A DNA stretch of 36,401 nt, taken from assembly GCA_022701825.1 (NCBI GenBank), contig JAKONR010000161.1, positions 1 through 36,401 on the forward strand, written 5' to 3'. Of the stretch, positions 9,176 to 36,401 are shown one piece after another. Origin of the DNA: Hymenobacteraceae bacterium (GTDB taxonomy: Bacteria; Bacteroidota; Bacteroidia; Cytophagales; Hymenobacteraceae). The translations under genes were made by a program, and so were the position numbers. The notes under the pieces are model-generated. The model worked only from the letters and a program-made list of their open reading frames with translations. It was not told where the DNA came from and ran no database searches. Numbering within the stretch: position 1 is the first letter of the stretch; every line of letters starts with the position of its first letter.

Positions 9176-10858
9176 TTAGTCGATATGAAACCAGTCCACA
9201 TCGGCGTTGCCCGCGTCGTTGAACTTGGCCGTGCGCGAGCAGAACAAGCCCACCTTGGCCCCGATCCACTTGCCTTCGCGCGCCTGAAATTCCGCGCCTA
9301 GGGGCTGAAAATGCTGCCCATCAAGGCTGTAGCTAAACTGGCACTTGGCCCCCGCCCGCACCGCCACACGCAGGTAGAGCGGCTGCCGGGCCTGGGCGGC
9401 GGGTACTTCTACCGGGGCCGAGGTGGTCTCGGGCGTCAGCTTGTCGGCGTTTTGGCACACGCTCTGGCTGAGGTACAGCTTGCCGCCTTGGCTGCTGAGC
9501 GCGAGGTAGGCATAGTCGAGGCCCATCATCATTAAGCCGACTTTCTCGCCCTCCGTGCGGGGGCTGAAGGTGAGCTTGGTGGTGGCCGCAAATGTTTCGG
9601 CGGGTAGCTTTTGCAGCAGCAGGTTGGGCACCTGCCAGTAGTTTTTGAAGCCCTCGGGCAACTGCACCGAGTAGAGGCGCAGGTAGCCCTGCGGCCCGTT
9701 CAGGTAGGCCCAGTAGTCCTGCGGGTTGGCGTGCCACTGCCACTGGCGGCCCAGCTGGCTGGTCGTAAACTCGTCGGAGGTGGGCGGGGTGGCCAGAGGC
9801 TGCGCCAGCCCCTTGATGCGGGGCTTGCGGTAGGTGAGCACCGGCTGGCCCTTGCCGTCACCATCGGAATCTTCGCCTATGACGGGCCAGTCGTTTTTCC
9901 ACGCCATCGGCTGCAAGTGCACCACCCGGCCATACGGTCCCTGGTCCTGGAAGTGCAGAAACCAGTCCTCACCCGCGTCGGTGTCTACCCACGCGCCCTG
10001 GTGCGGGCCGTTGACGGGGGTTTTGCCCTGGTCCATCACAATGCGCTCCTCGTAAGGCCCGTACACATTTTTCGAGCGCAGCACCAGCTGCCAGCCCGTG
10101 GGTACGCCGCCGGCCGGCGCGAAGATGTAGTAGTAGCCGTTGCGCTTGTAAAGCTTGGGGCCTTCGAGCGTGGGGTGCGCGGCGTGGCCGTCGAATACCA
10201 GCGCGTCGGGGCCAGTGAGGCGCTGCCCGTCGGCACTCAGCGGGCTCACGGCCAGGATGGTTTTGATGCCCGCCCGCGAGCCCGCGAAGCCGTGCACCAG
10301 GTAGGCCCGGCCGTCGGTGTCCCAGAGGGGGCAGGGGTCAATCCAGCCCACGGCCTGCTTCACGCACACGGGCGCCGACCACGGCCCGGCCGGGTTTTTG
10401 GCCTTCGTGACGAAGATACCCAGGTCGGGGTCGGGGTAGTAGATGTAGAACTCTTTGTTGTGGTAGCGAATGGCCGGCGCCCACACCCCGTTGCCGTGCT
10501 GCGGTAGGGCGTAGCGCGCCAGCGGCGGCTGCGCCTGAAACACGGCCCCGATTATCGTCCAGTTTACCAGGTCTTTGGAATGCAGGATTTGCAGGCCTGG
10601 CGCGGCGTTGAAGCTGGAAGATGTCAGGTAGAAGTCGCTGCCCACGCGCACCACATCGGGGTCGGAGTAGTCGGCGTAGAGCACCGGGTTTTTGTAGCGG
10701 CCGTTGCCCAGGTCGGGCACCCACACCTTGGATAGGGCCGCCGACCCGGCCGCTACCTGGGCCGTTGCCCAGCCGGGCAGCAACAGGCACATCGCCCATA
10801 AGGGCAGGACAGCCAGCCGTGGACATAACTGGCCAATAAACCGAAATACCATTCCCAT
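9176..10858 (-). CDS. GH43 family arabinosidase/xylosidase, exported
   Basis: 560-residue secreted or periplasmic glycoside hydrolase, likely removing alpha-L-arabinofuranose or beta-xylose from pectin or hemicellulose side chains. A signal peptide ending near ATAQ (residue 34) precedes the five-bladed propeller. The three GH43 acids are visible: base D66 in YADYSDPDVV, pKa-modulating D174 in GWIDPCPLWDTDG, and acid E232 in HPTLEGPKLYKRNGYYY. From about residue 360 a beta-sandwich C-terminal domain of the Beta_xyl_C2/GH43_C2 type follows (DEFTTSQLGRQWQWHANP onward, ending DVDWFHI). This two-domain layout with the PGLQILHSKDLVNW segment suggests subfamily 12, which is frequent in pectin loci. 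It is divergent from SusC1, sharing about 610 bp of upstream DNA with a palindrome, so the two are probably co-regulated. Exact linkage specificity is not determinable. Confidence 0.92.
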   Translation of the reverse strand: MGMVFRFIGQLCPRLAVLPLWAMCLLLPGWATAQVAAGSAALSKVWVPDLGNGRYKNPVLYADYSDPDVVRVGSDFYLTSSSFNAAPGLQILHSKDLVNWTIIGAVFQAQPPLARYALPQHGNGVWAPAIRYHNKEFYIYYPDPDLGIFVTKAKNPAGPWSAPVCVKQAVGWIDPCPLWDTDGRAYLVHGFAGSRAGIKTILAVSPLSADGQRLTGPDALVFDGHAAHPTLEGPKLYKRNGYYYIFAPAGGVPTGWQLVLRSKNVYGPYEERIVMDQGKTPVNGPHQGAWVDTDAGEDWFLHFQDQGPYGRVVHLQPMAWKNDWPVIGEDSDGDGKGQPVLTYRKPRIKGLAQPLATPPTSDEFTTSQLGRQWQWHANPQDYWAYLNGPQGYLRLYSVQLPEGFKNYWQVPNLLLQKLPAETFAATTKLTFSPRTEGEKVGLMMMGLDYAYLALSSQGGKLYLSQSVCQNADKLTPETTSAPVEVPAAQARQPLYLRVAVRAGAKCQFSYSLDGQHFQPLGAEFQAREGKWIGAKVGLFCSRTAKFNDAGNADVDWFHID

Positions 10859-11472
10859 AAGAAGCGAAACCGGCTGCTGGTAGCAAGCTCAGGCCGGCAA
10901 AGCTAGTGGAATAATTCTATTCGGAAACCTTCCCGCAATAAAAGGAACAGCGTCCAGTTGGCAAGTGCTGTCTGTGGTCATGAGCAAGCTGATTAAAAAG
11001 TCATAAAATAAGGTTATTTGGTGTGTGCAAAAGAAGCAACAGCAAGCAGTAGCTACGCAAAGCGGCTGCATGCACTTGATTTATATAAGTTTGAAAGGCA
11101 AATAGTAATAAAGAAGTGCAGCTTGTATTTAGGAGAGTACGTGGACCCCAAATGCTTATGTTAATATCACATACTTTTCAAATTGCTTTGCCAGTAGTGA
11201 ATAGGCTGTTTTTGCACTGGCAACGTTATCGGTAACGTTTGCATAAATAATAATTGGCTTTTTATTAAGAGTCAATAAATCCTAATTCATCTTTAGGCCA
11301 CAATCAAGGCTACCGTTTGCCGGGTAGCAGTTACCGCCGGGTATAGCAATAGTAATTATTTCAGGTGTACCAAAGTCTGGGTCAGCTGAACAGCTACTAT
11401 GCCGCCGCTACTAGTCGCCGCCTTTCCAAGGTTCCGTTGCTTTTCTCTTTTCCCACCCTTTGCTGCAATGCA
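10859..11472. promoter_or_regulatory. Divergent AT-rich control region of the pectin PUL
   Basis: 614 bp between the GH43 gene (leftward) and SusC1 (rightward), distinctly more AT-rich than the flanking genes, as expected for the main promoter region of the locus. It contains an 18-bp palindrome at 11222-11239 and, further up, a taagtttg at 11086-11093 resembling the Bacteroidota -7 element but without a well-spaced TTG. No gene is supported in it. Confidence 0.55.
11222..11239. promoter_or_regulatory. 18-bp palindrome, candidate operator
   Basis: Perfect 7-bp inverted repeat aacgtta-tcgg-taacgtt, extended outwards by imperfect gc...gc symmetry. It sits about 235 bp upstream of the SusC1 ATG and about 365 bp upstream of the GH43 start. 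The form (A/T-flanked CGTTA arms around a central CG) is the kind bound by LacI/GntR-type dimers. No such regulator gene is in this window, so the binding protein is unknown. Confidence 0.5.
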
Positions 11473-14400
11473 ATGAAAAAACTTGTATGCCTGTTTTTAC
11501 TCCTCACCGGGTTGTCGCTACTTGCGGCGGCCCAAAGCCCCGGCCGGCGCACCCTTACTGGCGTCGTTAAGACAGAAAAAGGGGAGGGGCTACCCGGAGC
11601 CAGTATTGTAGTGCAGGGCACTACCAACGGGGTGTCGTCTAACGCCGACGGGAGCTTTTCGCTCGTTATCCCAACTACGGGCACCCCGACGCTACTGGTC
11701 AGCTCCATTGGCTTCGTAAGCCAGACCATTGCCGTGGGCGACCGCACTAATTTGGTGGTGACGCTGCTGGATGACAGCAAGGCGCTCGACGATGTAGTGG
11801 TAGTCGCCATTGGCTACGGGGAGGCGGCCCGCCGCGACGTAACCGGGGCCGTGTCGTCGGTGAGCGCCAAGCAGATAAAGGACATTCCTATCAACTCGGC
11901 GGCCGACGCGCTAACCGGCCGGCTGGCTGGGGTGCAGGTAACTTCTTCTGAAGGGGCACCCGGCTCGGACGTTCGCATTCGGGTGCGTGGCGGCGGCTCC
12001 ATTACTCAAGATAATTCGCCCTTGTATGTGGTAGACGGCATTCAGCTGGAAAACGCGCTGGCAGTGCTTTCGCCGCAGGATATCCAGTCGGTAGACGTGC
12101 TGAAGGATGCCGCTGCCACGGCCATCTACGGGGCACGCGGGGCCAATGGGGTGGTGATTATCACGACCAAAAAAGGCTTTGAGGGCCGCACTAAGGTGGC
12201 ATATACGGGCTTTGCGGGCGTGCGGCGCATCGTGCGGACGCTCGACGTGCTCAAGCCGGGCGAGTACCTAGACTACCAGTACGACCGGGCAGCCCGCCAA
12301 ACTGGCGACCTGGCCACGTTTCGGAGCGCCTACGGCTCGCGCAACTTCACGGGCGATACGCTGGCCCGGGCTCGGCAGTCGCCCTTCACCGACTGGCAGA
12401 ACGAGGTATTTGGCCGCGATGCTTTTCAGCAAACCCACAACGTGTCGCTGACGGGTGGTGGCAAGGGCACCACGTTTTCGCTTAGTCTGACCAGCAACCA
12501 GGAGCAAGGCATTCAGCTGGAGTCGAACTACAACCGGATGCTGCTCAATTTCCGCTTCGACCACAAAGCCTCTGACAGACTGCGCTTCGGCTTCAACGTG
12601 CGCGCCAACAACCAGGTAACCGACGGCGCGGGCACGGCCAGCGGCGGCTTGGCCAGCAGTTCGCGCCTGCGCAATACGGTGCAGTACCGGCCCTTCACCA
12701 ACAACCTAGGCAGCGGCGTATCCATCGACCCCACCGAGGTGGACGAGAACTACTACCTGCTGAGCGGTGGGAGCAGCGGGCTTATCAACCCCATCGTGAT
12801 TGCCCAGGCTGAGTATCGCAGCAACAAGCAGCGGCTGGCCAACGGCAGCGCGTTCGTCAGCTACAACTTTACGAAGAACCTGGTTTTCCGCTCTACCCTG
12901 GGCGTAGATTACCTAAACACGCGGGCCGAGGCATTTAACTCTAAAATCACCGGCGTGGCCCGCACCTTCGGCGGCTTCCCGACGGCCACGCTCAACACGG
13001 CTGCCCAGCTGACGCTCAACAATTCGAACGTGCTGACCTATCAGCTGCGGAAAAACAAGCACTCGTTTGATGCCCTGCTGGGCCACGAGGTGTACCAGAC
13101 CCAGAACACCTCGCTGAACGCCTCGGTCAACTACCTACCACTGGATATTTCGGCCGAAAGCGTGTTTGCCAACCTCAACCAGGCCCAGGCCCCAGCCGGC
13201 TACATTCAGCCCTCACCCACGACCAGCGACGAGCCTAACCGTATTCTCTCCGGCTTTACCCGCCTCAACTACGCTTTCGACGACAAGTATATCGTGACGC
13301 TGACCACGCGGGTAGACGGGTCCAGCAAGTTTGGCCCCGGCAACAAGGCCGGGTTCTTCCCCGCCGCTTCGGTGGCCTGGCGCTTGTCGAGCGAAAATTT
13401 TATGAAGCCGCTCACGGCCGTATCGGACCTCAAGCTGCGCGTGAGCTACGGGCTGGCCGGCAACAACCGCATTCCCGGCAACCTTTACCAGCGCAGCTTT
13501 ACCACCAGCGGCGTGGAGTACTCCATCGACGGGGGGCGCACGCCGGGCTTGGCCGCTACCTCGCTGGCTTACCAAAATTTGCGCTGGGAAAGCACCCTCT
13601 CGCGCAACGTAGGAGTAGACCTGTCCTTGTTCAACAACCGGGTCCAGTTCACGGCCGATGCCTACGTCAACCACACCTACGACTTGCTGGTGGCTCAGCC
13701 TCTGACCCCCAGCACGGGCTACACCACGCAGCTGCGTAACATTGGCAAAACCTCCAATCGGGGCATCGAGCTGCAACTAAGCGGGGCGATTATTCAGGGC
13801 AAGGATTTTAGCTGGACGGCCAACGGCAACATTGCGTTCAACCGTAACCGGGTGGAAGACCTGGGCGGGCAGCCCTACCTGCCGGGCATCAACTCGGGCT
13901 GGACCAGCGACACCGGCCAGGACTACTGGGTGACGCCCGGCCAGCCGGTGGGCATGATGTACGGCTACGTCACTGACTTCGACAATGGCCGCAAGGGCTT
14001 CTACACCGTCGATGATTTTAAAGCCACGCAAGCCGCCAACGGTACCTGGAGCTACGTGCTGAAGGACGGCATCGCGAGCAACAACGGCGTGGTAGCCGAC
14101 AACATTGGCACGTCGGTGGGCGGCATCATCCAGCCCACGCCGGGCGCGGTGAAGTTCAAAGACCTGAACGGCGATGGCATCGTTAATACCCAGGACCGCA
14201 CTATTATCGGCAACGCCAACCCCAGCTTTACGGGTGGCCTCAATCAACAGTTTACATACAAAGGCTTCGATGCCAGCATCTTCGTAAACTTTGTGTACGG
14301 CAACGACATCTATAACGCCAACAAGATTGACTTCACCAGCGCCTACCTGGCCAACCAAAACGCGCTAGGCCTGATGCGCGACCGCTGGCGCACCATCGAC

Positions 14401-14760
14401 GCGCAAGGCACTCTGGTGACCGACCCCACGGGCCTGGCGGAGCTGAACAAAGACGCCCAAATCTGGCGGCCCACCCGCGGGCGCTACCTGCTGCACTCCT
14501 GGGCTATTGAGGACGGTTCCTTTCTGCGCATCAACAACGTGACGCTGGGCTACTCGCTGCCCAAGGCGCTGTTGCAGCGCGTGAAAGTAGACCAGCTGCG
14601 CTTCTACGTGACAATGAACAACCTGGCCGTATTCACCAATTACTCCGGGTTCGACCCCGAGGTGAATACCCGCCGCAGCTCGCCGCTCACGCCCGGCGTC
14701 GATTACGCGGCGTATCCCCGCAGCCGCCTCTTCCTGTTCGGCCTCAACCTGTCTCTCTAA
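11473..14760 (+). CDS. SusC-like TonB-dependent transporter 1
   Basis: 1,095-residue outer-membrane beta-barrel that imports oligosaccharides using TonB energy together with its SusD partner. The start ATG at 11473 gives a clean signal peptide, MKKLVCLFLLLTGLSLLAAA. Then come a carboxypeptidase-regulatory-like domain (GVVKTEKGEGLPGASIVVQG, about 25-110) and the plug domain with SADALTGRLAGVQV, PLYVVDGIQ and the SusC signature SVDVLKDAAATAIYGARGAN (about 110-235). The 22-strand barrel ends RLFLFGLNLSL. A GTG start 108 bp upstream is rejected because it would bury the signal peptide. SusD1 follows after 24 bp, a typical tight pair. Location in a pectin-type locus suggests pectic oligosaccharide import; specificity is inferred only. 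Confidence 0.95.
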   Translation: MKKLVCLFLLLTGLSLLAAAQSPGRRTLTGVVKTEKGEGLPGASIVVQGTTNGVSSNADGSFSLVIPTTGTPTLLVSSIGFVSQTIAVGDRTNLVVTLLDDSKALDDVVVVAIGYGEAARRDVTGAVSSVSAKQIKDIPINSAADALTGRLAGVQVTSSEGAPGSDVRIRVRGGGSITQDNSPLYVVDGIQLENALAVLSPQDIQSVDVLKDAAATAIYGARGANGVVIITTKKGFEGRTKVAYTGFAGVRRIVRTLDVLKPGEYLDYQYDRAARQTGDLATFRSAYGSRNFTGDTLARARQSPFTDWQNEVFGRDAFQQTHNVSLTGGGKGTTFSLSLTSNQEQGIQLESNYNRMLLNFRFDHKASDRLRFGFNVRANNQVTDGAGTASGGLASSSRLRNTVQYRPFTNNLGSGVSIDPTEVDENYYLLSGGSSGLINPIVIAQAEYRSNKQRLANGSAFVSYNFTKNLVFRSTLGVDYLNTRAEAFNSKITGVARTFGGFPTATLNTAAQLTLNNSNVLTYQLRKNKHSFDALLGHEVYQTQNTSLNASVNYLPLDISAESVFANLNQAQAPAGYIQPSPTTSDEPNRILSGFTRLNYAFDDKYIVTLTTRVDGSSKFGPGNKAGFFPAASVAWRLSSENFMKPLTAVSDLKLRVSYGLAGNNRIPGNLYQRSFTTSGVEYSIDGGRTPGLAATSLAYQNLRWESTLSRNVGVDLSLFNNRVQFTADAYVNHTYDLLVAQPLTPSTGYTTQLRNIGKTSNRGIELQLSGAIIQGKDFSWTANGNIAFNRNRVEDLGGQPYLPGINSGWTSDTGQDYWVTPGQPVGMMYGYVTDFDNGRKGFYTVDDFKATQAANGTWSYVLKDGIASNNGVVADNIGTSVGGIIQPTPGAVKFKDLNGDGIVNTQDRTIIGNANPSFTGGLNQQFTYKGFDASIFVNFVYGNDIYNANKIDFTSAYLANQNALGLMRDRWRTIDAQGTLVTDPTGLAELNKDAQIWRPTRGRYLLHSWAIEDGSFLRINNVTLGYSLPKALLQRVKVDQLRFYVTMNNLAVFTNYSGFDPEVNTRRSSPLTPGVDYAAYPRSRLFLFGLNLSL

Positions 14761-14784
14761 AAAAAAAATCCCACCCACTGGTTT

Positions 14785-16608
14785 ATGAAACGTTCTTTCC
14801 TGCGCCCCGTGCTGGCCGCGGGGCTGCTGAGCGCCCTAGCGCTGGCTTCCTGCAAAGACTATCTCGAAGCCCTCTCGCCCTCGGTTTACACCAATGCCGT
14901 AGCTTTCAGCAACGTCTCGAACGCTGGCAGCGCGGTCATTGGGGTTTACGACCCTTTGTCGGGGGACAATGGCTATGGCCTACGCCTGCCCCTGGCTTTC
15001 GGCTACGATACCGACGAGGGCCAAAACCGCCCTGGTGCCCCCGATGGCGGAGGGCGCGACGTGAACCGCTACCGCATGACGGCCGGCACCACGGAGCTGC
15101 CGGGGCCGTTTGCCACGCTCTACCAAGGCATCGAGCGGGCCAACATCTGCATCGAGCAGATTCCGCTCATGTCCTTGTACACAAACGGTACGCCCGCAGA
15201 AAAGCAGCAGCTGCGCCGGCTCTACGCCGAATGCCTGGCCCTACGCGCCGTTTACTACCTGGAGCTGGTGCGCAATTGGGGCGATGTGCCCGCCCCCTTC
15301 GTGCCCTCCAACGACACCAACCTGACTCCGGCCAAAACCGATAGCAACGTTATCTACGACCAGCTGCTCAGCGACCTGGCAATAGCGGCGCGCTACCTAC
15401 CGTGGCGCAACCAGGCCGACTACAACCCCTACGAGCGATTTACCAAGGGAGCCGCCAAGGCGTTGCGGGCCCGCATTGCCCTCTACCGGGGGGGCTACCA
15501 GCCCAAAGGTGCCCAAATGGTGCGCACGCCGGATTACCTGGATGCCTACCGGCTGGCACGGGCCGAGTGCGATACCCTGCTGCGCAACCGCAACCAGCAC
15601 ACGCTCAATCCTAGCTTCGAGCGGGTTTGGCGCAATATTTCGGGCCTCTCGTTCGACACGCAGTACGGCGAGATTATGTTTGAGGCGGCTATGGGCTCGG
15701 GCTCGGCCGCCTCGGACAGCAAGCTGGGCGCTACCAATGGGCCGCGCCTGTCGCAGTATTCGCGCTGGGGCCAGGCGGGCGGGGCCATCGTGATGCTGCC
15801 GACCTACTTCTACGCCTTCGACTCGACCGACACGCGCCGCGACGTCACCATCACCCTGTATCGCAACGTAGACGCCACGCCCACGGTAATCAACAGCGTG
15901 GCTGCTAATGCCATGACAGACGGTAAGTTTCGCCGCGACTGGCGCCTGCCGCTGCTGACCGGCACCACCCAGAACCTGGGCATGAACTGGCCCATCGTGC
16001 GCTTCGCCGATGTGCTGCTGATGTTTGCCGAAGCCCAGAACGAACTGGCCGGCCCCACGGCCGCCTACAACGGCACCACGCCGGTGCAGGCGCTGGAGGA
16101 AGTGCGGCAGCGGGCCTTCCCGGCCGCTTCGTACCGGGCTCTGCCTGCCACCCAGACCAGCACCGCCACCGCCTTCTTCACGACACTGGTAAATGAGCGG
16201 TGGCTGGAGTTCGGCGGCGAGAGCATCCGTAAGTACGACCTGATTCGGTGGAACCTGCTAGGCACCAAAATTGCCGAAACCAAAGCCAACCTCAATGCCT
16301 TTGTGGCCGGCACCGGGGCCTACGCCAACGTGCCACAGTACGTCTACGAGTACAACATCAGCCCCGAGCAGTTGCGCTACGCCCGCTCGCTGTACCGGCC
16401 CGCGCCCAGCACAGCCGCTACCTTCACCGTAACTACCGGCGGCGTAACCTACGCGGCCAAGCGCGTGAGCTGGCGGGCGGGCATTACGGCCGGCTACATC
16501 ACCGACGTGGCCTCGAACTACGTGCCGAATACGGGCGACGAGCTAATGGCCTTTCCGCAGTCGGTGCTCGATACCAATCCCAATCTGAAGCAGAACTACG
16601 GCTACTAA
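14785..16608 (+). CDS. SusD-like surface glycan-binding lipoprotein 1
   Basis: 607-residue RagB/SusD family lipoprotein that caps the SusC1 barrel and captures oligosaccharides at the cell surface. The lipobox LALASC places the acylated Cys at residue 23, followed by KDYLEALSPSVYTNAVAF. TPR-type helices with LYQGIERANICIEQIP and LRAVYYLELVRNWGDVP are the family's conserved segments. The C-terminal RagB domain carries WPIVRFADVLLMFAEAQNEL and NERWLEFGGESIRKYDLIRW, ending with the usual FPQSVLDTNPNLKQNYGY. Translated directly after SusC1 and followed by a strong hairpin terminator, it forms a two-gene unit with it. Confidence 0.95.
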   Translation: MKRSFLRPVLAAGLLSALALASCKDYLEALSPSVYTNAVAFSNVSNAGSAVIGVYDPLSGDNGYGLRLPLAFGYDTDEGQNRPGAPDGGGRDVNRYRMTAGTTELPGPFATLYQGIERANICIEQIPLMSLYTNGTPAEKQQLRRLYAECLALRAVYYLELVRNWGDVPAPFVPSNDTNLTPAKTDSNVIYDQLLSDLAIAARYLPWRNQADYNPYERFTKGAAKALRARIALYRGGYQPKGAQMVRTPDYLDAYRLARAECDTLLRNRNQHTLNPSFERVWRNISGLSFDTQYGEIMFEAAMGSGSAASDSKLGATNGPRLSQYSRWGQAGGAIVMLPTYFYAFDSTDTRRDVTITLYRNVDATPTVINSVAANAMTDGKFRRDWRLPLLTGTTQNLGMNWPIVRFADVLLMFAEAQNELAGPTAAYNGTTPVQALEEVRQRAFPAASYRALPATQTSTATAFFTTLVNERWLEFGGESIRKYDLIRWNLLGTKIAETKANLNAFVAGTGAYANVPQYVYEYNISPEQLRYARSLYRPAPSTAATFTVTTGGVTYAAKRVSWRAGITAGYITDVASNYVPNTGDELMAFPQSVLDTNPNLKQNYGY

Positions 16609-16780: not shown

Positions 16781-19264
16781 ATGATAATCAGTTCTTTTTA
16801 TACCTGGCTAGCCACTGGCTTGCTCGCTACTGCCGCCGCTGCCGCCGCCCCACCCGACACGCCCCTCAAGCTCTGGTACGACCACCCGGCCGCCAACTGG
16901 AACGAAGCCCTGCCCATCGGCAACGGCCGCCTGGGGGCGATGGTGTTTGGCACGCCCGAGCGCGAGCGCCTGCAACTCAACGAAGCGACCATCTGGGCCG
17001 GGGGGCCCAACAACAACGTGAACCCCGACGCGCTGCCGGTCATTCGGCAATTGCGCGAGCAGCTCCGGGCGGGCCAGCAGGTAGAGGCCCAGGCGCTGGC
17101 CCAGGAAAAGATGCGGCCCTACGGCAACAGCGGCATGCCCTACCAGATGGCCGCCAACCTCTACCTCACCTTTCCCGGTCACGAAAAAGCCACTAACTAC
17201 TACCGCGACCTCGACATTAGCCGGGCGGTGGCCTCGGTGCGCTACCAGCTCGGCGGGGTGACGTACAAGCGCGAAACCTTCAGCTCCTTGCCCGACCAGG
17301 TGCTGGTGGTGCGCCTCACGGCCAGCAAGCCGGGCAAAATCGACTGCCAGCTCAGCGAGGAAACGCTGGTGAAGTACACCCTGCGCACCGAAAACGACCA
17401 GCTCATTCTCGACGGCAACGGCAACGAGCACGAGGGCCAGGTGGGCAAAATCAAGTTTCAGACCCGCGTGAAAGTCCTTACCGAAGGCGGCCGCGTGGTA
17501 GCGGAAGAAAAAGGCCTGCGCATCGAGCACGCCACCAGTGCCACGCTCTACATCTCCATCGGCACCAATTTCAACAACTACCACGACCTGGGCGGCGACG
17601 CCGCCCAGCGGGCCAGCGCCTACCTGGCTAAGGCCGAAGGCAAGAAATACGACCAGGCCCTGCGCGACCAGGTGGCCGCCTACCAGCGCTACTTCAACCG
17701 CGTGAGTTTGAACCTGGGCGTGACGGCCGCCGCCCAAAAGCCCACCGACGTGCGCCTGGCCAACTTCGCCAACGGCCAGGACCCCGCCCTGGCGGCCCTG
17801 TATTTTCAGTACGGGCGCTATTTGCTCATCTGCTCGTCGCAGCCCGGTGGGCAGCCCGCCAACCTGCAAGGCATCTGGAACGACAAGCTCAAAGGCCCCT
17901 GGGACAGCAAGTACACGGTGAACATCAACACCGAAATGAACTACTGGCCCGCCGAGGCTACCAACCTCACGGAGATGCACCAGCCGCTGTTTGCCATGCT
18001 CAAAGACCTGAGCGTGACCGGCCAGCAGAGTGCCCGCACCATGTACGGGGCGCGGGGCTGGGTGCTGCACCACAACACCGACCTCTGGCGCATCACGGGT
18101 CAGGTCGACGCGCCCAACTTTGGCCTCTGGCCCATGGGCGGGGCCTGGCTGAGCCAGCACCTCTGGGACCACTACCAGTTCACGGGCGACCAGCAGTTTT
18201 TGCGCGAGTACTACCCCGTGCTCAAGGGCGCGGCCACATACTACGTCGATGCCTTGCAGGAGGAGCCTACCCATAAGTGGCTGGTGGTGAGCCCATCGAT
18301 GTCGCCCGAAAACTCCTACCAGCTCGACGGGCAGAAAATCGCCATCGTGGCCGGCACCACCATGGACAACCAGCTCGTGACGGACCTGTTTTCCAAGACC
18401 ATCCGGGCGGCCGAGCTGCTGGGGGCCGATAAAGCTTTTGCCGACACCCTGCGCACGCTGCGCGGGCGGCTGGCCCCCATGCAGATTGGGCAGTACGGGC
18501 AGGTGCAGGAGTGGCTGCAAGACCACGACAACCCCAAGGGCACGCACCGCCACATCTCGCACCTCTACGGGCTGTTTCCGAGCGGGCAGATTTCGCCCTA
18601 CCGCACGCCCGAGCTGTTTGAGGCGGCCCGCACCACCCTCACCCAGCGCGGCGACATCTCCACGGGCTGGTCGATGGGCTGGAAGGTGAATTTCTGGGCG
18701 CGCATGCTCGATGGCAACCACGCCTACCAGCTGCTAACCAACCAGCTGCGCCTGCTGCCCGGCACCGTGGAGAAGGTAAACGAGGCCACCGGCGGCGGCA
18801 CCTACCCCAACCTGCTCGACGCCCACCCGCCGTTTCAGATTGACGGCAACTTCGGCTGCACCTCGGGCCTGGCCGAGCTGTTTGTGCAAAGCTACGACGG
18901 GGCCATCGACATCCTGCCCGCCCTGCCCGATGCCTGGCCCAGCGGCGAGGTCACGGGCCTGGTGGCCCGCGGCGGCTACGTGGTAGACTTGGCCTGGAGC
19001 CAGGGCCGCGTGACGCACCTGCGCATTACCTCGCGCCTGGGCGGCACCTGCCGCCTGCGCCTGCACTCGCCTCTGAAAGCTGCTGGCAAAACCAAGCTGG
19101 TAGCAGCACAGGGCGAAAACCCCAACCCCTTCTACCAGGCGCTGCCCGTCAAAGCCCCCCTGGTTTCGGACAAGGCCACCGCCAAAAAGCCCAGCCTGCC
19201 GGCCTCCACGCTCTACGATATGCCCACCCAGGCCGGGCAGGCTTACGAGCTGACCAGCAAGTAA
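16781..19264 (+). CDS. GH95 alpha-L-fucosidase / alpha-L-galactosidase
   Basis: 827-residue inverting glycoside hydrolase. A hydrophobic leader (MIISSFYTWLATGLLATAA) precedes the mature start at LKLWYDHPAANWNEALPIGN, the conserved GH95 N-terminal motif. The (alpha/alpha)6 barrel carries NINTEMNYW (N381, N383, equivalent to Asn421/Asn423 of Bifidobacterium AfcA), SPSMSPENSY with acid E510, and HPPFQIDGNFG with D688. The residue two before N381 is Thr379, where fucosidases usually have His; from recall of the family, Thr here marks alpha-L-galactosidases. L-galactose occurs in rhamnogalacturonan II chain A, which would fit a pectin locus. The ATG at 16712 is rejected because it lies at the end of the terminator T-run. 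The gene sits between two SusC/D pairs, 107 bp before SusC2. Confidence 0.93.
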   Translation: MIISSFYTWLATGLLATAAAAAAPPDTPLKLWYDHPAANWNEALPIGNGRLGAMVFGTPERERLQLNEATIWAGGPNNNVNPDALPVIRQLREQLRAGQQVEAQALAQEKMRPYGNSGMPYQMAANLYLTFPGHEKATNYYRDLDISRAVASVRYQLGGVTYKRETFSSLPDQVLVVRLTASKPGKIDCQLSEETLVKYTLRTENDQLILDGNGNEHEGQVGKIKFQTRVKVLTEGGRVVAEEKGLRIEHATSATLYISIGTNFNNYHDLGGDAAQRASAYLAKAEGKKYDQALRDQVAAYQRYFNRVSLNLGVTAAAQKPTDVRLANFANGQDPALAALYFQYGRYLLICSSQPGGQPANLQGIWNDKLKGPWDSKYTVNINTEMNYWPAEATNLTEMHQPLFAMLKDLSVTGQQSARTMYGARGWVLHHNTDLWRITGQVDAPNFGLWPMGGAWLSQHLWDHYQFTGDQQFLREYYPVLKGAATYYVDALQEEPTHKWLVVSPSMSPENSYQLDGQKIAIVAGTTMDNQLVTDLFSKTIRAAELLGADKAFADTLRTLRGRLAPMQIGQYGQVQEWLQDHDNPKGTHRHISHLYGLFPSGQISPYRTPELFEAARTTLTQRGDISTGWSMGWKVNFWARMLDGNHAYQLLTNQLRLLPGTVEKVNEATGGGTYPNLLDAHPPFQIDGNFGCTSGLAELFVQSYDGAIDILPALPDAWPSGEVTGLVARGGYVVDLAWSQGRVTHLRITSRLGGTCRLRLHSPLKAAGKTKLVAAQGENPNPFYQALPVKAPLVSDKATAKKPSLPASTLYDMPTQAGQAYELTSK

Positions 19265-19371
19265 TTAAATTCACTCTGCATACTACTACCATTTGGCCTA
19301 TGCTATAACCTGCGTTGCCCCGCCTCCGACAATTTCACTCCCTTGCCCCACCCGCTAGAATTCCCACCAGT

Positions 19372-22300
19372 ATGAGAAGAAACGTACCACTACCAAAGGG
19401 ACTTATGCTCCTTTGCCCCCCTACTACTTGGCGAGGCCTGGCCTATACCTCGCTTTTCCCGCTATTACTGGCGGCCACCTTTCCCACAGCTTCGCTGGCG
19501 CACGATGGCCACGCCGCGGCCAGCCGAACAGTTGAAGGAACTGACCACCCCCTGGCCGACCGAGTGGTAACGGGCTTCGTGACCGACGAGAAAAACGAGC
19601 CCCTGCCCGGCGTTACCGTCGTGGTAAAAGGCACCCCGCAGGGCGCGACTACGGATGTAGCTGGCAAGTTTCAGGTGACGGTGCCCGAAACCGGGGAGGT
19701 TGTGCTCTCCTTTTCCTTTATCGGCTACAAAAGCCAGGAGGTAGTGGTTGGGAACCGGAAAACGATAACGCTGGCAATGGCTCTCACGACCAATGCCGTT
19801 GATGAGGTCGTGGTAATTGGCTACGGGGCTGTGCGCAAAAAAGACCTGACGGGCGCCGTAACCCAGCTGAAAGGGGAGGAGCTAAAGGAAATTCCGGCCG
19901 CTAACGTGCTGGAAGCCGCCCAGGGCAAAATCGCGGGTGCCGACATCACGCGGAGCAGCGGCCAGGCCGGGGCGGCCGTCAACATCACCATCCGCGGCAA
20001 CCGCTCCATCGGGGGCAACAACTCCCCGCTGATTATTGTCGATGGCATTCAGTACAACAGCTTGCAGGACATCAACGCCAACGACATCGAAACGATGGAC
20101 GTGCTGAAAGATGCTTCCTCGACCGCTATTTACGGCTCGCGCGGCTCCAATGGCGTTATCCTGATTACCACTAAAAAAGGCAAATCGGGCAAGCCGGAAA
20201 TCTCCTTCAATACCTACGCGGGCATTTCGAAGGTCACGATGTATCCCAAGGCCATGGATATTTACGGCTACCGCGACCTGAAACGGGAGGCCTGGCGGGC
20301 GGCCGGCGTGTGGAAAAGCCCCGCCGACGACCCAGCCATTTTTACCAACCTGGCCGAATACCAGGCCTTGCAGAACGGCGAATGGACGGATTTTCAGGAG
20401 GCGCTCATTCACAATGGCTTGCAGCAGGACTACCAGGTGGGCGTGCGGGCCGGCACCGACCGGCTGAAGGCCTACATCTCGGCCGATTACTTCAATGAGA
20501 AGGGCATCCTGAAAATGGACGAGCTGAAGCGCTACACTGGCCGCCTCAACGTCGATTTCATCATCACCGACTGGTTGAAAGTGGGGATGCAAAACCAGCT
20601 CACGTACTACAACCAGAGTGTGCGGCGCGACCCCCTAAACCAGGCCAACAAAATCAGCCCGCTGGGCTCGCTCTACGATGCCAACGGCAATTTCAACTAC
20701 ATTATGCTGGACGGCCAAACGGCCAACCCACTCTCGGACGAGCAGCCCAATGTGTTTGATGGCCAGGTGCTAACCACCCGGACGCTGACTACCGGCTACC
20801 TGGAGTTGACGCCAATCAAGGGCTTGGTTGTGCGGAGCACGCTGGGCGTCAGTTTGTCGTCGCTCCGCGACGGGGCTTACATGTCGCCGAGGTCGCTCGA
20901 CCGGTCGCTCTCGGGCAAGTCGCTGGCCACGTACAATACCAGCAATAGCCGAGGCATCAACTGGGAAAACGTGGCCACCTACCAGCACAGTTTTGGCCAG
21001 CACGCCCTCACCGTGACGGGCATCGCCAGCTACCTGGGCAACACGGCGGACAATGCGGCCGCTTCGGGCGTTAATCAGCTCTTGCCTAGCCAATTGTTTT
21101 ATTCGCTGGGCAGCGCCACCGAGGAAATCAAGATTAACTCGGCTTATTCGCAAAACAACCTGGTGTCGTTTGCGGCCCGCGTCAACTACGCCTTCCGCGA
21201 CCGGTACCTACTGACGCTTACCGCCCGCGAAGACGGCTCGTCGAAGCTGGCCGTGGGTAACAAGTGGACCTTCTTCCCGTCGGCAGCCGTGGCCTGGCGC
21301 ATTGTGGATGAGCCCTTTATGAAAAATATCAGCGGCCTGACCGATTTGAAGCTGCGCACCAGCTACGGCGTGGCCGGCAACGACCCCTCGGGGCCGTATG
21401 CCACCCAAACGACCCTCACGCGCATCGCCTTCGGCTACGATGAGGTGCCATATCCGGCTTACACGTTTTCGCGCAACGTGGGCAACGCGGCCCTGGGCTG
21501 GGAGCTGTCCTACACCAAAAACATAGGCTTGGATGTGGCTGTGTTTGGGGGCCGCCTGAGTGGGTCGATTGACTACTACGACACCCGCACCCGCGACCTG
21601 CTGCTGGACCGGGGCCTGCCCCCCACCTCGGGCGTAACCACGGTGAAGCAGAATATTGGCCGCACGCGCAACCGCGGCGTCGAAGTGTCGCTAACCAGCA
21701 CCAATATTCAGAGCAAGAGCCTGACCTGGACCAGCACCCTCACTTACACCCGCAACAAAGAGGAAATTACGGACCTCGTAACCGATGGCAACGATGTAGG
21801 CAATGGCTGGTTTATCGGGCAGCCCATCCAGGTGTATTACGACTACGAGAAGCTCGGCATCTGGCAAACCAGCGAAGCCGACCAGGCCGCGAAACTATCG
21901 CCGACCCAGCTGCCGGGCGAAATCAAGGTGAAAGACCAGAATGGCGACGGCAAAATCGACGCCATCAACGACCGGGTTATCCTGGGCAACCCGCGCCCCA
22001 AGTGGAGCGGCGGCCTCGACAACACGGTGCGCTACAAGGGGTTTGACCTGAACGTCTTCGTTTATGCCCGCATCGGCCAGATGATTAGCTCCGACCGCTC
22101 GGCTCGTTTCGACTACCAGGGCATCGGCAACAGCACGGCCGGCCTCGACTACTGGACGCCCGAAAACCCTACCAACGATTACCCCCGCCCCAATAAGAAC
22201 GGGGGCGGCAAATACCTCTCCACGCTAGCCTACCAAAGCGGCTCGTTTGCCCGCATTCGCAATATCACGCTGGGCTACAATATGCCTACTGCCTTGCTAC

Positions 22301-22446
22301 CCAAGGCACTGCGCGGGGTGCGGGTGTACGTGACGGGTAAAAACCTGTTCACCTTCACCAAGCTGAACTACGACCCGGAGCGCGGCGGCAGCGAGAATTT
22401 TCCCCTGACCAAGCTATACGTATTTGGCTTGAACGCCACCTTTTAA
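19372..22446 (+). CDS. SusC-like TonB-dependent transporter 2
   Basis: 1,024-residue outer-membrane importer. From the ATG at 19372 the N-terminus is a long, positively charged leader (MRRNVPLPKGLMLLCPP, then SLFPLLLAATFPTASLA). This is followed by the regulatory-like domain (VTGFVTDEKNEPLPGVTVVV), the plug (NVLEAAQGKIAGADITRSSG, SPLIIVDGIQ, DVLKDASSTAIYGSRGSNGV) and the barrel closing at KLYVFGLNATF. An in-frame start 57 bp upstream is possible but would lengthen an already long leader. It is only moderately similar to SusC1 by eye, so it probably takes a different oligosaccharide from the same polymer. SusD2 follows after 23 bp. It sits between the GH95 gene and the esterase/polygalacturonase group. 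Confidence 0.95.
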   Translation: MRRNVPLPKGLMLLCPPTTWRGLAYTSLFPLLLAATFPTASLAHDGHAAASRTVEGTDHPLADRVVTGFVTDEKNEPLPGVTVVVKGTPQGATTDVAGKFQVTVPETGEVVLSFSFIGYKSQEVVVGNRKTITLAMALTTNAVDEVVVIGYGAVRKKDLTGAVTQLKGEELKEIPAANVLEAAQGKIAGADITRSSGQAGAAVNITIRGNRSIGGNNSPLIIVDGIQYNSLQDINANDIETMDVLKDASSTAIYGSRGSNGVILITTKKGKSGKPEISFNTYAGISKVTMYPKAMDIYGYRDLKREAWRAAGVWKSPADDPAIFTNLAEYQALQNGEWTDFQEALIHNGLQQDYQVGVRAGTDRLKAYISADYFNEKGILKMDELKRYTGRLNVDFIITDWLKVGMQNQLTYYNQSVRRDPLNQANKISPLGSLYDANGNFNYIMLDGQTANPLSDEQPNVFDGQVLTTRTLTTGYLELTPIKGLVVRSTLGVSLSSLRDGAYMSPRSLDRSLSGKSLATYNTSNSRGINWENVATYQHSFGQHALTVTGIASYLGNTADNAAASGVNQLLPSQLFYSLGSATEEIKINSAYSQNNLVSFAARVNYAFRDRYLLTLTAREDGSSKLAVGNKWTFFPSAAVAWRIVDEPFMKNISGLTDLKLRTSYGVAGNDPSGPYATQTTLTRIAFGYDEVPYPAYTFSRNVGNAALGWELSYTKNIGLDVAVFGGRLSGSIDYYDTRTRDLLLDRGLPPTSGVTTVKQNIGRTRNRGVEVSLTSTNIQSKSLTWTSTLTYTRNKEEITDLVTDGNDVGNGWFIGQPIQVYYDYEKLGIWQTSEADQAAKLSPTQLPGEIKVKDQNGDGKIDAINDRVILGNPRPKWSGGLDNTVRYKGFDLNVFVYARIGQMISSDRSARFDYQGIGNSTAGLDYWTPENPTNDYPRPNKNGGGKYLSTLAYQSGSFARIRNITLGYNMPTALLPKALRGVRVYVTGKNLFTFTKLNYDPERGGSENFPLTKLYVFGLNATF

Positions 22447-22469
22447 TCGACTGAATACCAGTTATTTCT

Positions 22470-24113
22470 ATGAAAGCTTTTTTCACCAAGAAGGGGATAG
22501 CATTGCTCGCGCTGCTTGGGCTGTTTTCGTGCACCGACACCTTGCAGGAGTACAACCCCAGCGGCCTGACGGCCGACACGGTGTACTCGACGCCGGAGGG
22601 CTTCGAAACCCTGGTCAACGCGGCTTACTCGTACCAGCGCTGGTGGTACGGCAAAGAGGAGGCCCACAACATGACCGAGCTGGGCACCGACATCTGGACC
22701 AGCGGCTCAGGCGACACCGACCGGGGCCTGAGCCAGTACCTTAACCTGCAAGGTACCAACACGTACTTGGCCACCGAATGGCGCGAGCTGTACGCGGCCG
22801 TGAACCTGTGCAACGGCGGCCTGGCCCGCATCGACAAGGCGGGGCTTTCGGCCACGCTACGCCCCATCCGGGAGGGCGAGCTGCGTTTTTTGCGCGCCTT
22901 CTACTACTGGCACATTGTAGAAACCTGGGGAGGCGTGCACTTCACCACCGACGAAACCACGGGGGTAGTTTCAACCGCCAACCGCACGCCCGTAGCCGCT
23001 TTCTATGACCTGATTCTCTCAGACTTGCGCACGGCTGTGGACAAGCTGCCCACCACCCAGCCGCAGTATGGCAAGGTGACCAAGGGCGCGGCGCAGGCCT
23101 TTCTGGCGCGCATGTGCCTGGCGCGGGGTCTCAACCAGGAGGCGCTGACCTTGGCACAGGCTGTCATGGCCAACACGGCCTACCGGCTAGAGCCCAACTA
23201 CGCCGACCTCTGGAAGATGAGCAACCTGAAAACCCGGGAAGCCATTTACGTAGTCGATTACTCGGTTAATCTGGCAATCAATGACCTGGTTAATGCGACA
23301 TTCAACCCCTACGGCCACGGCCGGGGCAGCAACAATGCCCACCTGCTGTACTTGATGAAGTACGACGACCGGCCCGGCATGGTGCGCGATATCGCCAATG
23401 GGCGGCCCTTTAACCGCTACATGCCCACGCGCTTTCTGCTCGACCTCTACAGCACCAACGACGCCCGCTACGAAGGCTCGTTCAACGAGGTGTGGTATGC
23501 CAACTCGACCTCTCGCCCGGCCGGCATGGCCCTCGGCGACACGGCCGTGTACTGCACGCGCCGCGAAATTCCGCTCGCGTTTCAGGCCACTCGCAAGTAC
23601 CAAACTATAGACCGGGTCAAGATTTACAACGCCAACGGCACGGTAAAAGACAACCTGCGTTATCCCAGCTTGTCGAAATTCATGGACCCGACCCGACCCA
23701 GCCTCAACGAGGCGCAGAGCGCCCGCGACGTGTTCGTTATCCGCCTGGCCGAAGTGTATCTGATTGCCGCCGAGGCCCAAATGAAGCTCAACAACCTGCA
23801 AGCCGCCGCCGACTACGTGAATGTGCTGCGCACCCGCGCGGCCAAGCCCGGCCGCGCGGCCGCCATGCAGGTGACGGCCGCGCAAATGACGCTGGACTTT
23901 ATGTTGGACGAGCGCGCCCGCGAGCTGGCTGGCGAGCAGCTGCGTTGGTTTGACCTGGTGCGTACCGGCAAGCTGCTGGACCGCGTGCGGCTGTATGCGC
24001 CCGATAATGCCGTTAACATTCAGCCATTTCACGTGCTGCGGCCCATTCCGCAAACGCAGCTGGATGCCGTCACCAACAAAAGCGACTTCACGCAAAACCC
24101 TGGCTATCAATAG
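22470..24113 (+). CDS. SusD-like surface glycan-binding lipoprotein 2
   Basis: 547-residue RagB/SusD lipoprotein, partner of SusC2. The lipobox LGLFSC gives acylated Cys21, then TDTLQEYNPSGLTADTVYST. Conserved helices include WRELYAAVNLCNGGLARID and LRFLRAFYYWHIVETWGGVH. The C-terminal half has VFVIRLAEVYLIAAEAQMKL and LDERARELAGEQLRWFDLVR, ending LRPIPQTQLDAV and FTQNPGYQ, all family hallmarks. It would bind pectic oligosaccharides at the surface and seal the SusC2 pore. A hairpin lies directly after the stop codon, separating it from the enzyme genes. Confidence 0.95.
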   Translation: MKAFFTKKGIALLALLGLFSCTDTLQEYNPSGLTADTVYSTPEGFETLVNAAYSYQRWWYGKEEAHNMTELGTDIWTSGSGDTDRGLSQYLNLQGTNTYLATEWRELYAAVNLCNGGLARIDKAGLSATLRPIREGELRFLRAFYYWHIVETWGGVHFTTDETTGVVSTANRTPVAAFYDLILSDLRTAVDKLPTTQPQYGKVTKGAAQAFLARMCLARGLNQEALTLAQAVMANTAYRLEPNYADLWKMSNLKTREAIYVVDYSVNLAINDLVNATFNPYGHGRGSNNAHLLYLMKYDDRPGMVRDIANGRPFNRYMPTRFLLDLYSTNDARYEGSFNEVWYANSTSRPAGMALGDTAVYCTRREIPLAFQATRKYQTIDRVKIYNANGTVKDNLRYPSLSKFMDPTRPSLNEAQSARDVFVIRLAEVYLIAAEAQMKLNNLQAAADYVNVLRTRAAKPGRAAAMQVTAAQMTLDFMLDERARELAGEQLRWFDLVRTGKLLDRVRLYAPDNAVNIQPFHVLRPIPQTQLDAVTNKSDFTQNPGYQ

Positions 24114-24213: not shown

Positions 24214-25140
24214 ATGCTGTTACTTATCCGCCCCGTTGTTTTCTGCTTGCTGTACCTGAGTTTTTTGCAAGCTCAGGCACAAGAGTTTATACCGCTTTGG
24301 CCAAAGAAAAAGCTGCCCAACTCCAAGGGGTTAAAGCTGGCGGATAAAATAGAGAACGAGCGAATTTTACAGGTGGGCACGCCGGGTATGTATGCTTTTT
24401 TTACCTCGAAAGAAGAAAACAAAGGCTGCGCCGTGCTCATCTGCCCTGGCGGTGGCTACGAGCGCCTGACCTACCTGCTGGGCGGCACGCAGCTGGCCAA
24501 GTGGTTTAATACGATGGGCGTCACGGCCTTTGTGCTGAACTACCGCCTGCCGACCTCACCCGACCTCCAGGACCGCACCATTGGCCCCGAGCAAGACGCC
24601 CAGCGCGCCATGCGCCTGATTCGGGCCAGCGCCGCCCGCTGGAAGCTCGACCCGGCGCGCATCGGCATTATGGGGGGCTCGGCGGGCGGGCACCTGGCTT
24701 CTACGCTGGGCACGCACCCCGAGGACGTAGCGGCCATCGGCGACTCGCTCGACCGCGTGCCCTTTGCCCCCAGTTTTATGGTGCTGGTGTCGCCCGTTAT
24801 CAGCATGGGCCAGTACGCCCACGCCGGCAGCCGCAAAAACCTGCTCGGCGAAAATCCCTCGGCGACGCTGGTGGCCAAGTTCTCCAACGAGCTGCATGTC
24901 ACGGCTGCCACCCCACCCACCTTTTTGGCCCACGCCTACAACGACAAGTCAGTGAATCAGCGCAATAGCCTGCTCTTTTATCAGGCCTTGGTTGAGCACG
25001 ATGTGCCGGGCAGCCTGCACATTTTCCCGCAGGGCGGCCACGCCATTGCCCTGCGCAATACCCCCGGCTCGGCTAGCCAGTGGACGACCCTTTGCGAGGC
25101 GTGGCTGCTGGAGATGGGGTTTCTCGCGGGCCGCGAGTAG
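24214..25140 (+). CDS. Alpha/beta-hydrolase carbohydrate esterase 1, exported
   Basis: 308-residue serine esterase of the BD-FAE/acetylxylan-esterase-like group, predicted to remove acetyl or similar esters from plant polysaccharide. The signal peptide ends near QAQAQ (residues 19-23). The oxyanion-hole motif PGGGY is at 78-82, the nucleophile Ser156 lies in GIMGGSAGGH, the likely acid is D244 in HAYNDKSV, and the catalytic His276 is in FPQGGHAIAL. Length is normal for a single-domain member. It heads the enzyme block, 46 bp before the CE12 gene, after the SusD2 hairpin. Given CE12 and CE8 neighbours, acetylated galacturonan is the likely substrate, but xylan acetyl groups cannot be excluded. 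Confidence 0.88.
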   Translation: MLLLIRPVVFCLLYLSFLQAQAQEFIPLWPKKKLPNSKGLKLADKIENERILQVGTPGMYAFFTSKEENKGCAVLICPGGGYERLTYLLGGTQLAKWFNTMGVTAFVLNYRLPTSPDLQDRTIGPEQDAQRAMRLIRASAARWKLDPARIGIMGGSAGGHLASTLGTHPEDVAAIGDSLDRVPFAPSFMVLVSPVISMGQYAHAGSRKNLLGENPSATLVAKFSNELHVTAATPPTFLAHAYNDKSVNQRNSLLFYQALVEHDVPGSLHIFPQGGHAIALRNTPGSASQWTTLCEAWLLEMGFLAGRE

Positions 25141-25186
25141 GGCAGTTGTACCTGCTGTTCAAGTAGTTTATTCACTAGCTCATTTT

Positions 25187-26017
25187 ATGCGTCGTTTTCT
25201 ACTTCCGCCCATCGCCGGCCTTGGCTTGTTGCTGCTGACGGCCTTTGCGGCCCCCGGCCCGTCTAGGAAAACCAAGCTATTCATGATTGGCGATTCGACG
25301 ATGGCCAACAAGCCCCAGCATGTATTCCCCGAAACCGGCTGGGGGATGCCGCTGGCCACCTTCTTCGACACGGCGGCGGTGGTGATTGACAACCGCGCCC
25401 AGAACGGGCGCAGCACGCGCACCTTTCTGGCCGAAAACCGCTGGCAGCCCATCGTGGCCGCGCTGCAACCGGGGGACTACGTGTTCATTCAGTTTGGGCA
25501 CAACGACGAGGCCGAAAACTACCCCGACCGCTACACCCCCCCGGAGGACTACCGCCAGAACCTGTTGAAATTTGTGCGCGAAACGCGGGCCAAAAAGGCC
25601 TACCCGGTGCTGCTGACGCCCATCACACGCCGCCGCTTCGACAAGGAAGGCCGCGTGCAGGAAACCCACGTGGCCTACTCCAAAGTGACGGCCGAGGTGG
25701 CCGCCCAACAGCGCGTGCCGCTCATCGACCTCGACCGCATGAGCCGCGAGCTGGTGCAACAGTACGGGGTCGAAAAATCGTTGCTGCTGTACCTGGAGCT
25801 GGCCCCCGGCGACCATCCCAACTACCCCTACGGCCACCACGACAACACCCATTTCACGGAGCTGGGCGCTCGCAAGATGGCACAACTGGCCGTGGGCCAA
25901 ATCGTGGCCCAGCAGCTGCCCACGCTCTCGGAGCACCTGGCCAAGCCCACGGCCAAAAACGCCGTGCCGCCCGCCCCTAACCCCAATGGCAAGGATGCCC
26001 AGCCTACTACCCCGTAG
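25187..26017 (+). CDS. CE12 rhamnogalacturonan acetylesterase
   Basis: 276-residue SGNH/GDSL-fold esterase of family CE12 that removes O-acetyl groups from rhamnogalacturonan or pectin. The start ATG at 25187 gives MRRFLLPPIAGLGLLLLTAF as signal peptide. Block I is LFMIGDSTMA with nucleophile S37, block II includes the Gly of NRAQNGRSTRTF, block III is QFGHNDEAE with oxyanion Asn106, and block V is HHDNTHF with D219 and H222. These are the four SGNH signatures in order. The C-terminal tail (KNAVPPAPNPNGKDAQ) is low in complexity and probably disordered. An open frame extends upstream to 24992 inside the previous gene but without a leader, so it is rejected. Confidence 0.93.
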   Translation: MRRFLLPPIAGLGLLLLTAFAAPGPSRKTKLFMIGDSTMANKPQHVFPETGWGMPLATFFDTAAVVIDNRAQNGRSTRTFLAENRWQPIVAALQPGDYVFIQFGHNDEAENYPDRYTPPEDYRQNLLKFVRETRAKKAYPVLLTPITRRRFDKEGRVQETHVAYSKVTAEVAAQQRVPLIDLDRMSRELVQQYGVEKSLLLYLELAPGDHPNYPYGHHDNTHFTELGARKMAQLAVGQIVAQQLPTLSEHLAKPTAKNAVPPAPNPNGKDAQPTTP

Positions 26018-29861: not shown

Positions 29862-29936
29862 GTGGGCGGTTTGGGAAGCTCAGTAGGCTGAGCGATAATG
29901 AAGTAAAATACTGACTAGCAATGTAAAGCGATAACA

Positions 29937-33216: not shown

Positions 33217-33237
33217 CAGTATTGGGTGGGATGCAGG

Positions 33238-36384: not shown

Positions 36385-36401
36385 AAAATCGGGTGGGAAA
36401 A

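Follow-up and report, generated by a model that had tools for sequence, protein, structure and literature searches.

The window analyzed here is a 36,401-nucleotide stretch of contig JAKONR010000161.1 (GenBank assembly GCA_022701825.1) from a Hymenobacteraceae bacterium, and our subject is the glycoside hydrolase family 95 (GH95) gene near its middle. The draft genome, probably metagenome-assembled, has 573 contigs and a completeness of 83%, and the window is its contig C165; among the best 80 of at least 584 relatives, the best named ones belong to Hymenobacter. SusC/SusD genes, GH28 and CE8 lie at the same locus as the GH95 gene (Table 1), which makes this a homogalacturonan-type pectin polysaccharide utilization locus (PUL) and agrees with the pectin context proposed in the initial annotation, with a GH28, two CE8 enzymes, esterases and SusC/SusD around the GH95. 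PaeX and PaeY, named in the table, are pectin acetylesterases, and the NCBIfam matches to them all fall below cut-off. The domain scan covered 25 of the 58 window open reading frames (ORFs) listed, many of which overlap; among those scanned there were no markers of rhamnogalacturonan II (RG-II) breakdown (GH140, GH78, BT_1020-like protein), none of the xylan families GH10, GH67 and GH115, and none of the xyloglucan-type families GH31, GH35, GH74 and GH5. Two transposase ORFs, of the DDE_Tnp_1 and rve types, lie upstream of the pectin locus (139-813 and 7555-8448).

Table 1. Features of the GH95 gene and its pectin locus in the window, with related parts at other loci in the last line
Feature	Position	Strand	Basis
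GH95 glycoside hydrolase, 827 aa: N-terminal beta-sandwich, (alpha/alpha)6 catalytic domain, C-terminal domain	16781..19264	+	translation, Pfam, alignment, model, structure comparison
Probable Sec signal peptide, residues 1 to about 23	16781..16849	+	read by eye from sequence
His/Thr position and Asn pair proposed as base: codons of T379 (17915-17917), N381 (17921-17923), N383 (17927-17929)	17915..17929	+	alignment, motif pattern
Loop D443-A-P-N-F447-G448; F447 aligned with FucOB W453	18107..18124	+	alignment
E510, counterpart of the general acid E501 in BACOVA_03438	18308..18310	+	alignment; PMC4491172
D688, aligned with BACOVA_03438 D670 and with Asp 686 of the XacAfc95 chain	18842..18844	+	alignment
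GH43 carrying a GH43_C2 domain, transcribed divergently from the PUL	9176..10858	-	Pfam
SusC/SusD pair immediately upstream of GH95	11365..16608	+	Pfam
Second SusC/SusD pair, between GH95 and the esterases	19315..24113	+	Pfam
Two esterases: BD-FAE-type alpha/beta hydrolase (PaeX match below cut-off) and GDSL esterase (PaeY match below cut-off)	24214..26017	+	Pfam, NCBIfam
CE8 pectin methylesterase	26127..27125	+	Pfam
GH28, galacturonidase-like (below NCBIfam cut-offs)	27177..28856	+	Pfam, NCBIfam
Second BD-FAE-type esterase (28863-29861) and second CE8 (29937-30911)	28863..30911	+	domain scan
Third SusD/SusC pair, extending to no more than two bases from the end of the contig	31477..36399	-	domain scan
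Split BT_1020-like parts (other contigs; also at L120 and L149/L150)	L146:1-1123, L147:2512-4044	-	

The GH95 frame encodes 827 aa with no internal stops; a start at the in-frame ATG of position 16712 is possible and gives an 850-aa form, on which the Pfam scoring was done. All three GH95 parts score above cut-off, with 604.4 bits for PF22124 (catalytic), 243.5 for PF14498 (N-terminal) and 81.4 for PF21307 (C-terminal), and NCBIfam returned no models at E<=0.001. The signal region, read by eye, has no lipobox Cys, from which the enzyme is probably periplasmic; BACOVA_03438, the Bacteroides ovatus alpha-L-galactosidase, is described as periplasmic as well (PMC4491172). The structure model, built with 28 input sequences, has a mean predicted local distance difference test (pLDDT) score of 86.1 and a predicted template modeling score of 0.90. 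Its ten top structural matches are all GH95 enzymes (Z 36.5-47.4), and the next family drops to Z 25.8. The best is 4UFC, the structure of BACOVA_03438 (Z 47.4, 777 residues aligned), followed by XacAfc95 of Xanthomonas citri (43.5), 8ZBV and 2RDY (42.4), AfcA of Bifidobacterium bifidum (36.5-36.8) and FucOB of Akkermansia (36.6). Together with the three Pfam parts, these matches uphold the family assignment, and the protein is a GH95 enzyme of ordinary type. The model was discarded as a guide to the active site because the loops at residues 375-377 and 437-441 fall below pLDDT 50. A 637-aa open frame also runs antisense to the gene (16808-18721, minus strand), probably as a mere consequence of high G+C content.

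The catalytic residues of GH95 are all present. The motif region reads KYTVNINTEMNYW, with KY-T379-V-N381-I-N383-TEMNYW at its core, and T379, N381, N383 and E510 align on T370, N372, N374 and E501 of BACOVA_03438, in the numbering of PMC4491172. The supporting Asp is D688, on D670 of BACOVA_03438 and on an Asp at chain position 686 of XacAfc95, numbered D690 in PMC8245568 (offset 4, as for Thr395). The general acid is assigned differently in the two sources, as D690 in PMC8245568 and as the Glu in PMC4491172. T379 also aligns on the His of FucOB, and the spacing W374-(+5)-T379-(+2)-N381-(+2)-N383 equals that of W414, H419, N421 and N423 in AfcA, which was compared by published numbers only (PMC10063614, PMC4491172). 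As the initial annotation had placed it, Thr379 therefore stands at the position of AfcA His419, two residues before the Asn pair; in the alignment with the characterized L-galactosidase it is Thr, and no other residue, that falls there.

The further claim, that this Thr marks activity on L-galactose, fails. The idea was proposed by Rogowski et al. (PMC4491172), who called it inconclusive; in their work the T370H variant of BACOVA_03438 lost its activity on corn xylan with no rise in fucosidase activity. Vieira et al. (PMC8245568) describe XacAfc95 as bearing Thr395 and being very specific for L-fucose, a preference that its T395H variant keeps, and name Blon_2335 as another fucosidase with Thr; PMC10063614 repeats the conclusion that the Thr is not decisive for the sugar.

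The Thr is also common. A free-position pattern (Y-x-x-N-I-N-x-[EQ]-M-N-Y-W), which misses FucOB-like proteins, gave 78 matches in 51 of 296 Bacteroidota genomes, counted by eye as 66 with Thr, 12 with His and none with another residue. For alignment we took the best 80 of at least 584 relatives, found through the short patterns NINTEMN and GWKVNFW and biased toward close kin, so that their counts are not family-wide frequencies; further rows came from hand-chosen genomes, and 20 added loci were picked by a pattern that itself requires Thr. GH95 ORFs shorter than 600 aa or below 400 bits were dropped, as were duplicates (among those removed by the size and score rule were two pieces at locus L096, L117, three ORFs at L033 and a piece at L116), and L137, with its GH95 in two pieces, has no row. 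Of the resulting 127 rows, 40 could be called to a single locus type, 1 was mixed and 86 had no call, with L003 and L112 assigned to RG-II by hand from marker positions; neighbor labels outside the Pfam-scanned proteins come from BLAST or cluster membership and are rough. Thr stands in 118 rows and His in 9, with Thr in 24/24 homogalacturonan-type, 12/12 xylan, 4/4 RG-II and 1/1 mixed rows and in 77/86 uncalled ones, and the GH95s of all 80 loci carry it. Being common to all locus types, it cannot tell them apart, and in these samples it is the majority residue, neither unusual nor diagnostic of an L-galactosidase. Taken literally, the rule would call between 85% (free-position sample) and 93% (127 rows) of the sampled GH95s L-galactosidases. 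A one-residue rule that proven fucosidases already contradicted is thereby corrected.

Phylogenetic analysis gives the place of the enzyme in the family. In the 127-row quick tree, with supports from the SH-like approximate likelihood ratio test, the window enzyme falls in a 36-row clade (support 99) with no solved enzyme inside, and BACOVA_03438, to which the protein at L135 in a Bacteroides genome is 100% identical, in another clade, of 23 rows (support 100). XacAfc95 branches outside the 101-row group that contains the window enzyme. A careful 44-row tree keeps the separation, with 14 window-side rows at 97/97. By identity the enzyme is about equally distant from its reference points, at 53.2% to 4UFC, 54.6% to the GH95 of L091 and 48.3% to XacAfc95 (712 positions). 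The 22 callable rows of the window clade comprise 18 homogalacturonan-type, 3 xylan and 1 RG-II, and the BACOVA_03438 clade has 6 xylan, 1 homogalacturonan-type and 16 uncalled rows. Locus type follows the tree: the 40 labels need 8 changes, where 200 shuffles of them needed 10-16 (mean 14.2), and kinship inflates such a test. The 36-row clade is an uncharacterized group of GH95 enzymes recurrent in the sampled Bacteroidota pectin loci. Two other placements were tried and rejected by the approximately unbiased (AU) test, on groups chosen after the tree was seen: joining the window enzyme, L094, L006 and L007 to the BACOVA_03438 clade (p 0.00379; the clades are separate in both trees) and to the Bacteroides RG-II, or BT1010-like, clade (p 0.00201).

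The nearest GH95s among the matches listed are L094 of H. norwichensis (79.3%), L005 (79.1%, context uncalled) and L006 of H. coccineus (77.5%), followed by L007 of H. norwichensis (71.6%). L007 repeats the gene order of the window, with a GH43 on the minus strand, SusC, SusD, GH95, an esterase, two GDSL frames and CE8 frames (974 bits for the GH43, 1587 for SusC, 782 for SusD and 507 for the esterase), except that the second SusC/SusD pair is absent. The surroundings of L094 and L006, which hold GH67, several GH43 and GH10 or GH97, would suit a xylan-type alpha-L-galactosidase like BACOVA_03438 that happens to sit in a pectin locus and strips L-galactose from glucuronoarabinoxylan side chains arriving with the pectin. 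The GH43 and BD-FAE-type esterases near the window gene fit such a role, and L094, L006 and the window enzyme share a DxPx[FY]G loop and a longer acid loop that L007 does not have. We nevertheless regard it as unlikely, given the lack of xylan families among the window ORFs scanned, the AU result on the BACOVA_03438 clade and the branching order: the window enzyme branches before the xylan-locus copies, and L007 lies outside both. The simplest account of this order would be that a pectin-locus enzyme was copied into a xylan locus within Hymenobacter, the window enzyme branching just before the move; gene replacement in the window's own locus is a less simple alternative. As an observation in its own right, the 77-79% identical copies in Hymenobacter xylan loci (L094/L123 and L006) suggest movement of GH95 genes between pectin and xylan loci. 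In Rufibacter hautae (L009, 5352-9844), a GH95 adjoins genes that by eye resemble a uronate catabolism operon, a hint of a pectin role.

The initial annotation had linked the enzyme to RG-II, and L-galactose does occur there, at the end of side chain A (PMC12168206). An RG-II chain A alpha-L-galactosidase, with Thr379 selecting L-galactose and RG-II imported through the pectin locus, would also suit the homogalacturonan backbone of RG-II, the nearest solved structure, an L-galactosidase with the same Thr, and the RG-II locus in which L095 of Mangrovibacterium, from the wider window clade, is found. The Thr argument is undone by the fucosidases that carry it, and no RG-II marker stands among the 25 window ORFs scanned. 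In whole-genome searches, matches to GH140 and the BT_1020-like protein fell only on contig C332, which carries its own GH95, L003, 46.9% identical to the window enzyme. This GH95, beside RG-II markers, is therefore the better-placed candidate in the same genome for removing L-galactose from RG-II. Together with the AU rejection of the Bacteroides RG-II grouping, these points make the RG-II link quite improbable. Flax acidic rhamnogalacturonan, moreover, holds both L-galactose and L-fucose (PMC9368198), so RG-II is not the sole pectic source of L-galactose.

The C332 locus (L146 and L147) is of RG-II type, with GH140, BT_1020-like parts, GH28 and a GH2 with a Malectin domain besides its GH95; its H. 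norwichensis counterpart is L149/L150, where the matching locus lies on contig C7 with the GH95 L112. In the H. coccineus genome, neither GH140 nor a BT_1020-like protein was found. In L116 the BT_1020-like protein is one 1281-aa chain, whereas the RG-II loci of Hymenobacter and Mangrovibacterium encode its propeller and its glycosidase in different genes. C332 also encodes a weakly L-fucose-isomerase-like protein (L146:5403-7082), which matches PF02952 with 31.5 bits in one scan and 28.7 bits, below cut-off, in another. PF02952 matches weakly in H. norwichensis and not at all in the profile search of H. coccineus, while both Mangrovibacterium and B. xylanisolvens give full-strength matches. 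Such matches do not separate L-galactose from L-fucose use, and the window genome is a draft at 83% completeness. Four matches to GH29 fucosidases in the window genome, some partial, do not decide between the two sugars either.

With the Thr set aside, the loop at residues 443-448 is a candidate determinant. FucOB W453 (chain residue 429 plus 24) is described as important at the +1 subsite (PMC10063614), and F447 aligns with it, a position read from the alignment through loops. Over the 127 rows, column 447 holds W 52, Y 43, A 11, S 8, C 5, F 4, H 3 and one gap. The homogalacturonan-type rows have Y 18, C 3, W 2 and F 1, the last being the window enzyme; the RG-II rows have S 2 and H 2, from three separate branches (L091; L095; L003 with L112), which tells further against an RG-II role for an enzyme with Phe; and the xylan rows have W 5, A 4, Y 2 and F 1. 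The pattern is a lead from few independent cases and no result. The mixed xylan column weakens it, as does F435 of BACOVA_03438, treated as the equivalent aromatic in PMC10063614, which aligns with window residue 444, three positions before the Ala at 447. A rather unlikely proposal from sequence is that the window enzyme is one of a widespread, distinct clade of GH95s from homogalacturonan-type loci, with a substrate defined in none of the papers found, and that this loop, and not Thr or His, sets which sugar and acceptor a GH95 takes; the loop is at least testable as a determinant.

The same column bears on whether the enzyme is an alpha-L-fucosidase whose substrates are fragments of fucosylated pectin or xyloglucan. 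At this position XacAfc95 and FucOB carry Trp, aromatic like F447, where BACOVA_03438 has Ala and the Bacteroides RG-II clade Ser; Thr-bearing GH95s are found among fucosidases; and the table of 15 characterized GH95s in PMC10154630 gives fucosidase activity for 13 and L-galactose release for 2. The nearest characterized enzyme by sequence, however, frees only L-galactose from corn xylan, with trace fucosidase activity (PMC4491172), the window ORFs scanned include none of the xyloglucan-type families, and both the nearby F435 and the mixed xylan rows blunt the comparison at 447. Fucosidase activity is possible though doubtful, and it overlaps with the explanation that we prefer, which leaves the sugar open.

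That explanation, which we consider fairly probable, takes the protein for a periplasmic GH95 hydrolase with an inverting mechanism and exo action, encoded by a Hymenobacter-like bacterium in a pectin locus of homogalacturonan type. It probably clips terminal L-galactose or L-fucose from plant pectin fragments. L-galactosidase activity is plausible because the two GH95s with reported L-galactose release act on plant wall polymers and one of them is the nearest solved relative; L-galactose is tentatively preferred, L-fucose is less likely, and activity on both or on another sugar is less likely again. The donor is more likely a side group borne on homogalacturonan or rhamnogalacturonan I (RG-I) than RG-II, because the genome has another, better-placed GH95 for the latter. 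SusC/SusD proteins would bring in partly depolymerized pectin, CE8 and the esterases would strip methyl and acyl groups, GH28 would shorten the backbone, and the GH95 would remove a terminal alpha-L-galactosyl or alpha-L-fucosyl residue that blocks further breakdown. As in published GH95 work, E510 would serve as the acid and N381/N383 would activate water; Thr379 could contact O6 of L-galactose, as Thr370 does in BACOVA_03438, with L-fucose not forbidden. The order of the steps, like the periplasmic place and the substrate, is our proposal, built on the observed family, fold, catalytic residues, locus and clade.

Several points weigh against this explanation. A homogalacturonan call requires only one of GH28, CE8, PL10 or DUF4957 within about 10 kb, and 14 of the 36 rows in the window clade could not be called. 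The xylan loci of L094 and L006 mean that the window enzyme may serve a xylan-type side chain, and L095, one row of the wider clade, lies in an RG-II locus. The papers found establish no L-galactose or L-fucose group on plain homogalacturonan, the flax polymer being the only one with both, and the sugar acted on is suggested by sequence, locus and analogy. The nearest published parallel, a pectin locus of Segatella copri with CE8 and GH95 genes, speaks in favor of the explanation, its transport genes and the neighboring GH28 and GH43_10 being strongly upregulated on homogalacturonan and RG-I in transcriptome data (PMC11784079). Its weight is limited, as the expression of the GH95 gene is not stated in the part concerned and this GH95, known here by locus description, is itself only a predicted L-galactosidase. 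Within the open-licence PMC papers, we found no report on a Hymenobacter GH95 and no homogalacturonan-locus GH95 with a defined substrate.

Among known systems, BACOVA_03438 (PDB 4UFC) is the best structural match and shares the fold, the catalytic residues and the Thr at the His419 place at 53% identity, but it differs in its separate 23-row clade, where 6 of 7 callable rows lie in xylan loci, in its shorter acid loop and in having DFAAAG where the window enzyme has DAPNFG. XacAfc95 (PDB 7KMQ), an alpha-1,2-L-fucosidase, has Thr395 at the same position, NINTEMNYW and the catalytic residues (Z 43.5), but is only 48.3% identical, falls outside the 101-row group and comes from a xyloglucan locus (PMC8245568). 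AfcA and FucOB share the fold and catalytic residues (for AfcA by published numbers) but have His at the Thr position and are, by structural alignment, only 32 and 36% identical to the window enzyme. The Bacteroides RG-II clade (L091/L131/L090) resembles the window enzyme as a GH95 with Thr and a pectin-type substrate, and differs in identity (54.6% for L091), in its DKAPSG loop and in its separate clade. L091 adjoins GH88/105, GH140, GH78, GH28 and a BT_1020-like protein, which gave its RG-II call; these proteins are taken as BT1010 orthologues, L091 being equated with BT1010 from its locus and from the GH95 that PMC4769552 describes in a B. xylanisolvens locus homologous to a B. thetaiotaomicron RG-II locus, not from the BT1010 sequence. 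Closest in setting is the GH95 of predicted PUL6 in S. copri DSM18205, which stands beside CE8 and SusC/SusD and near GH28 and GH43 (PMC11784079), as the window gene does.

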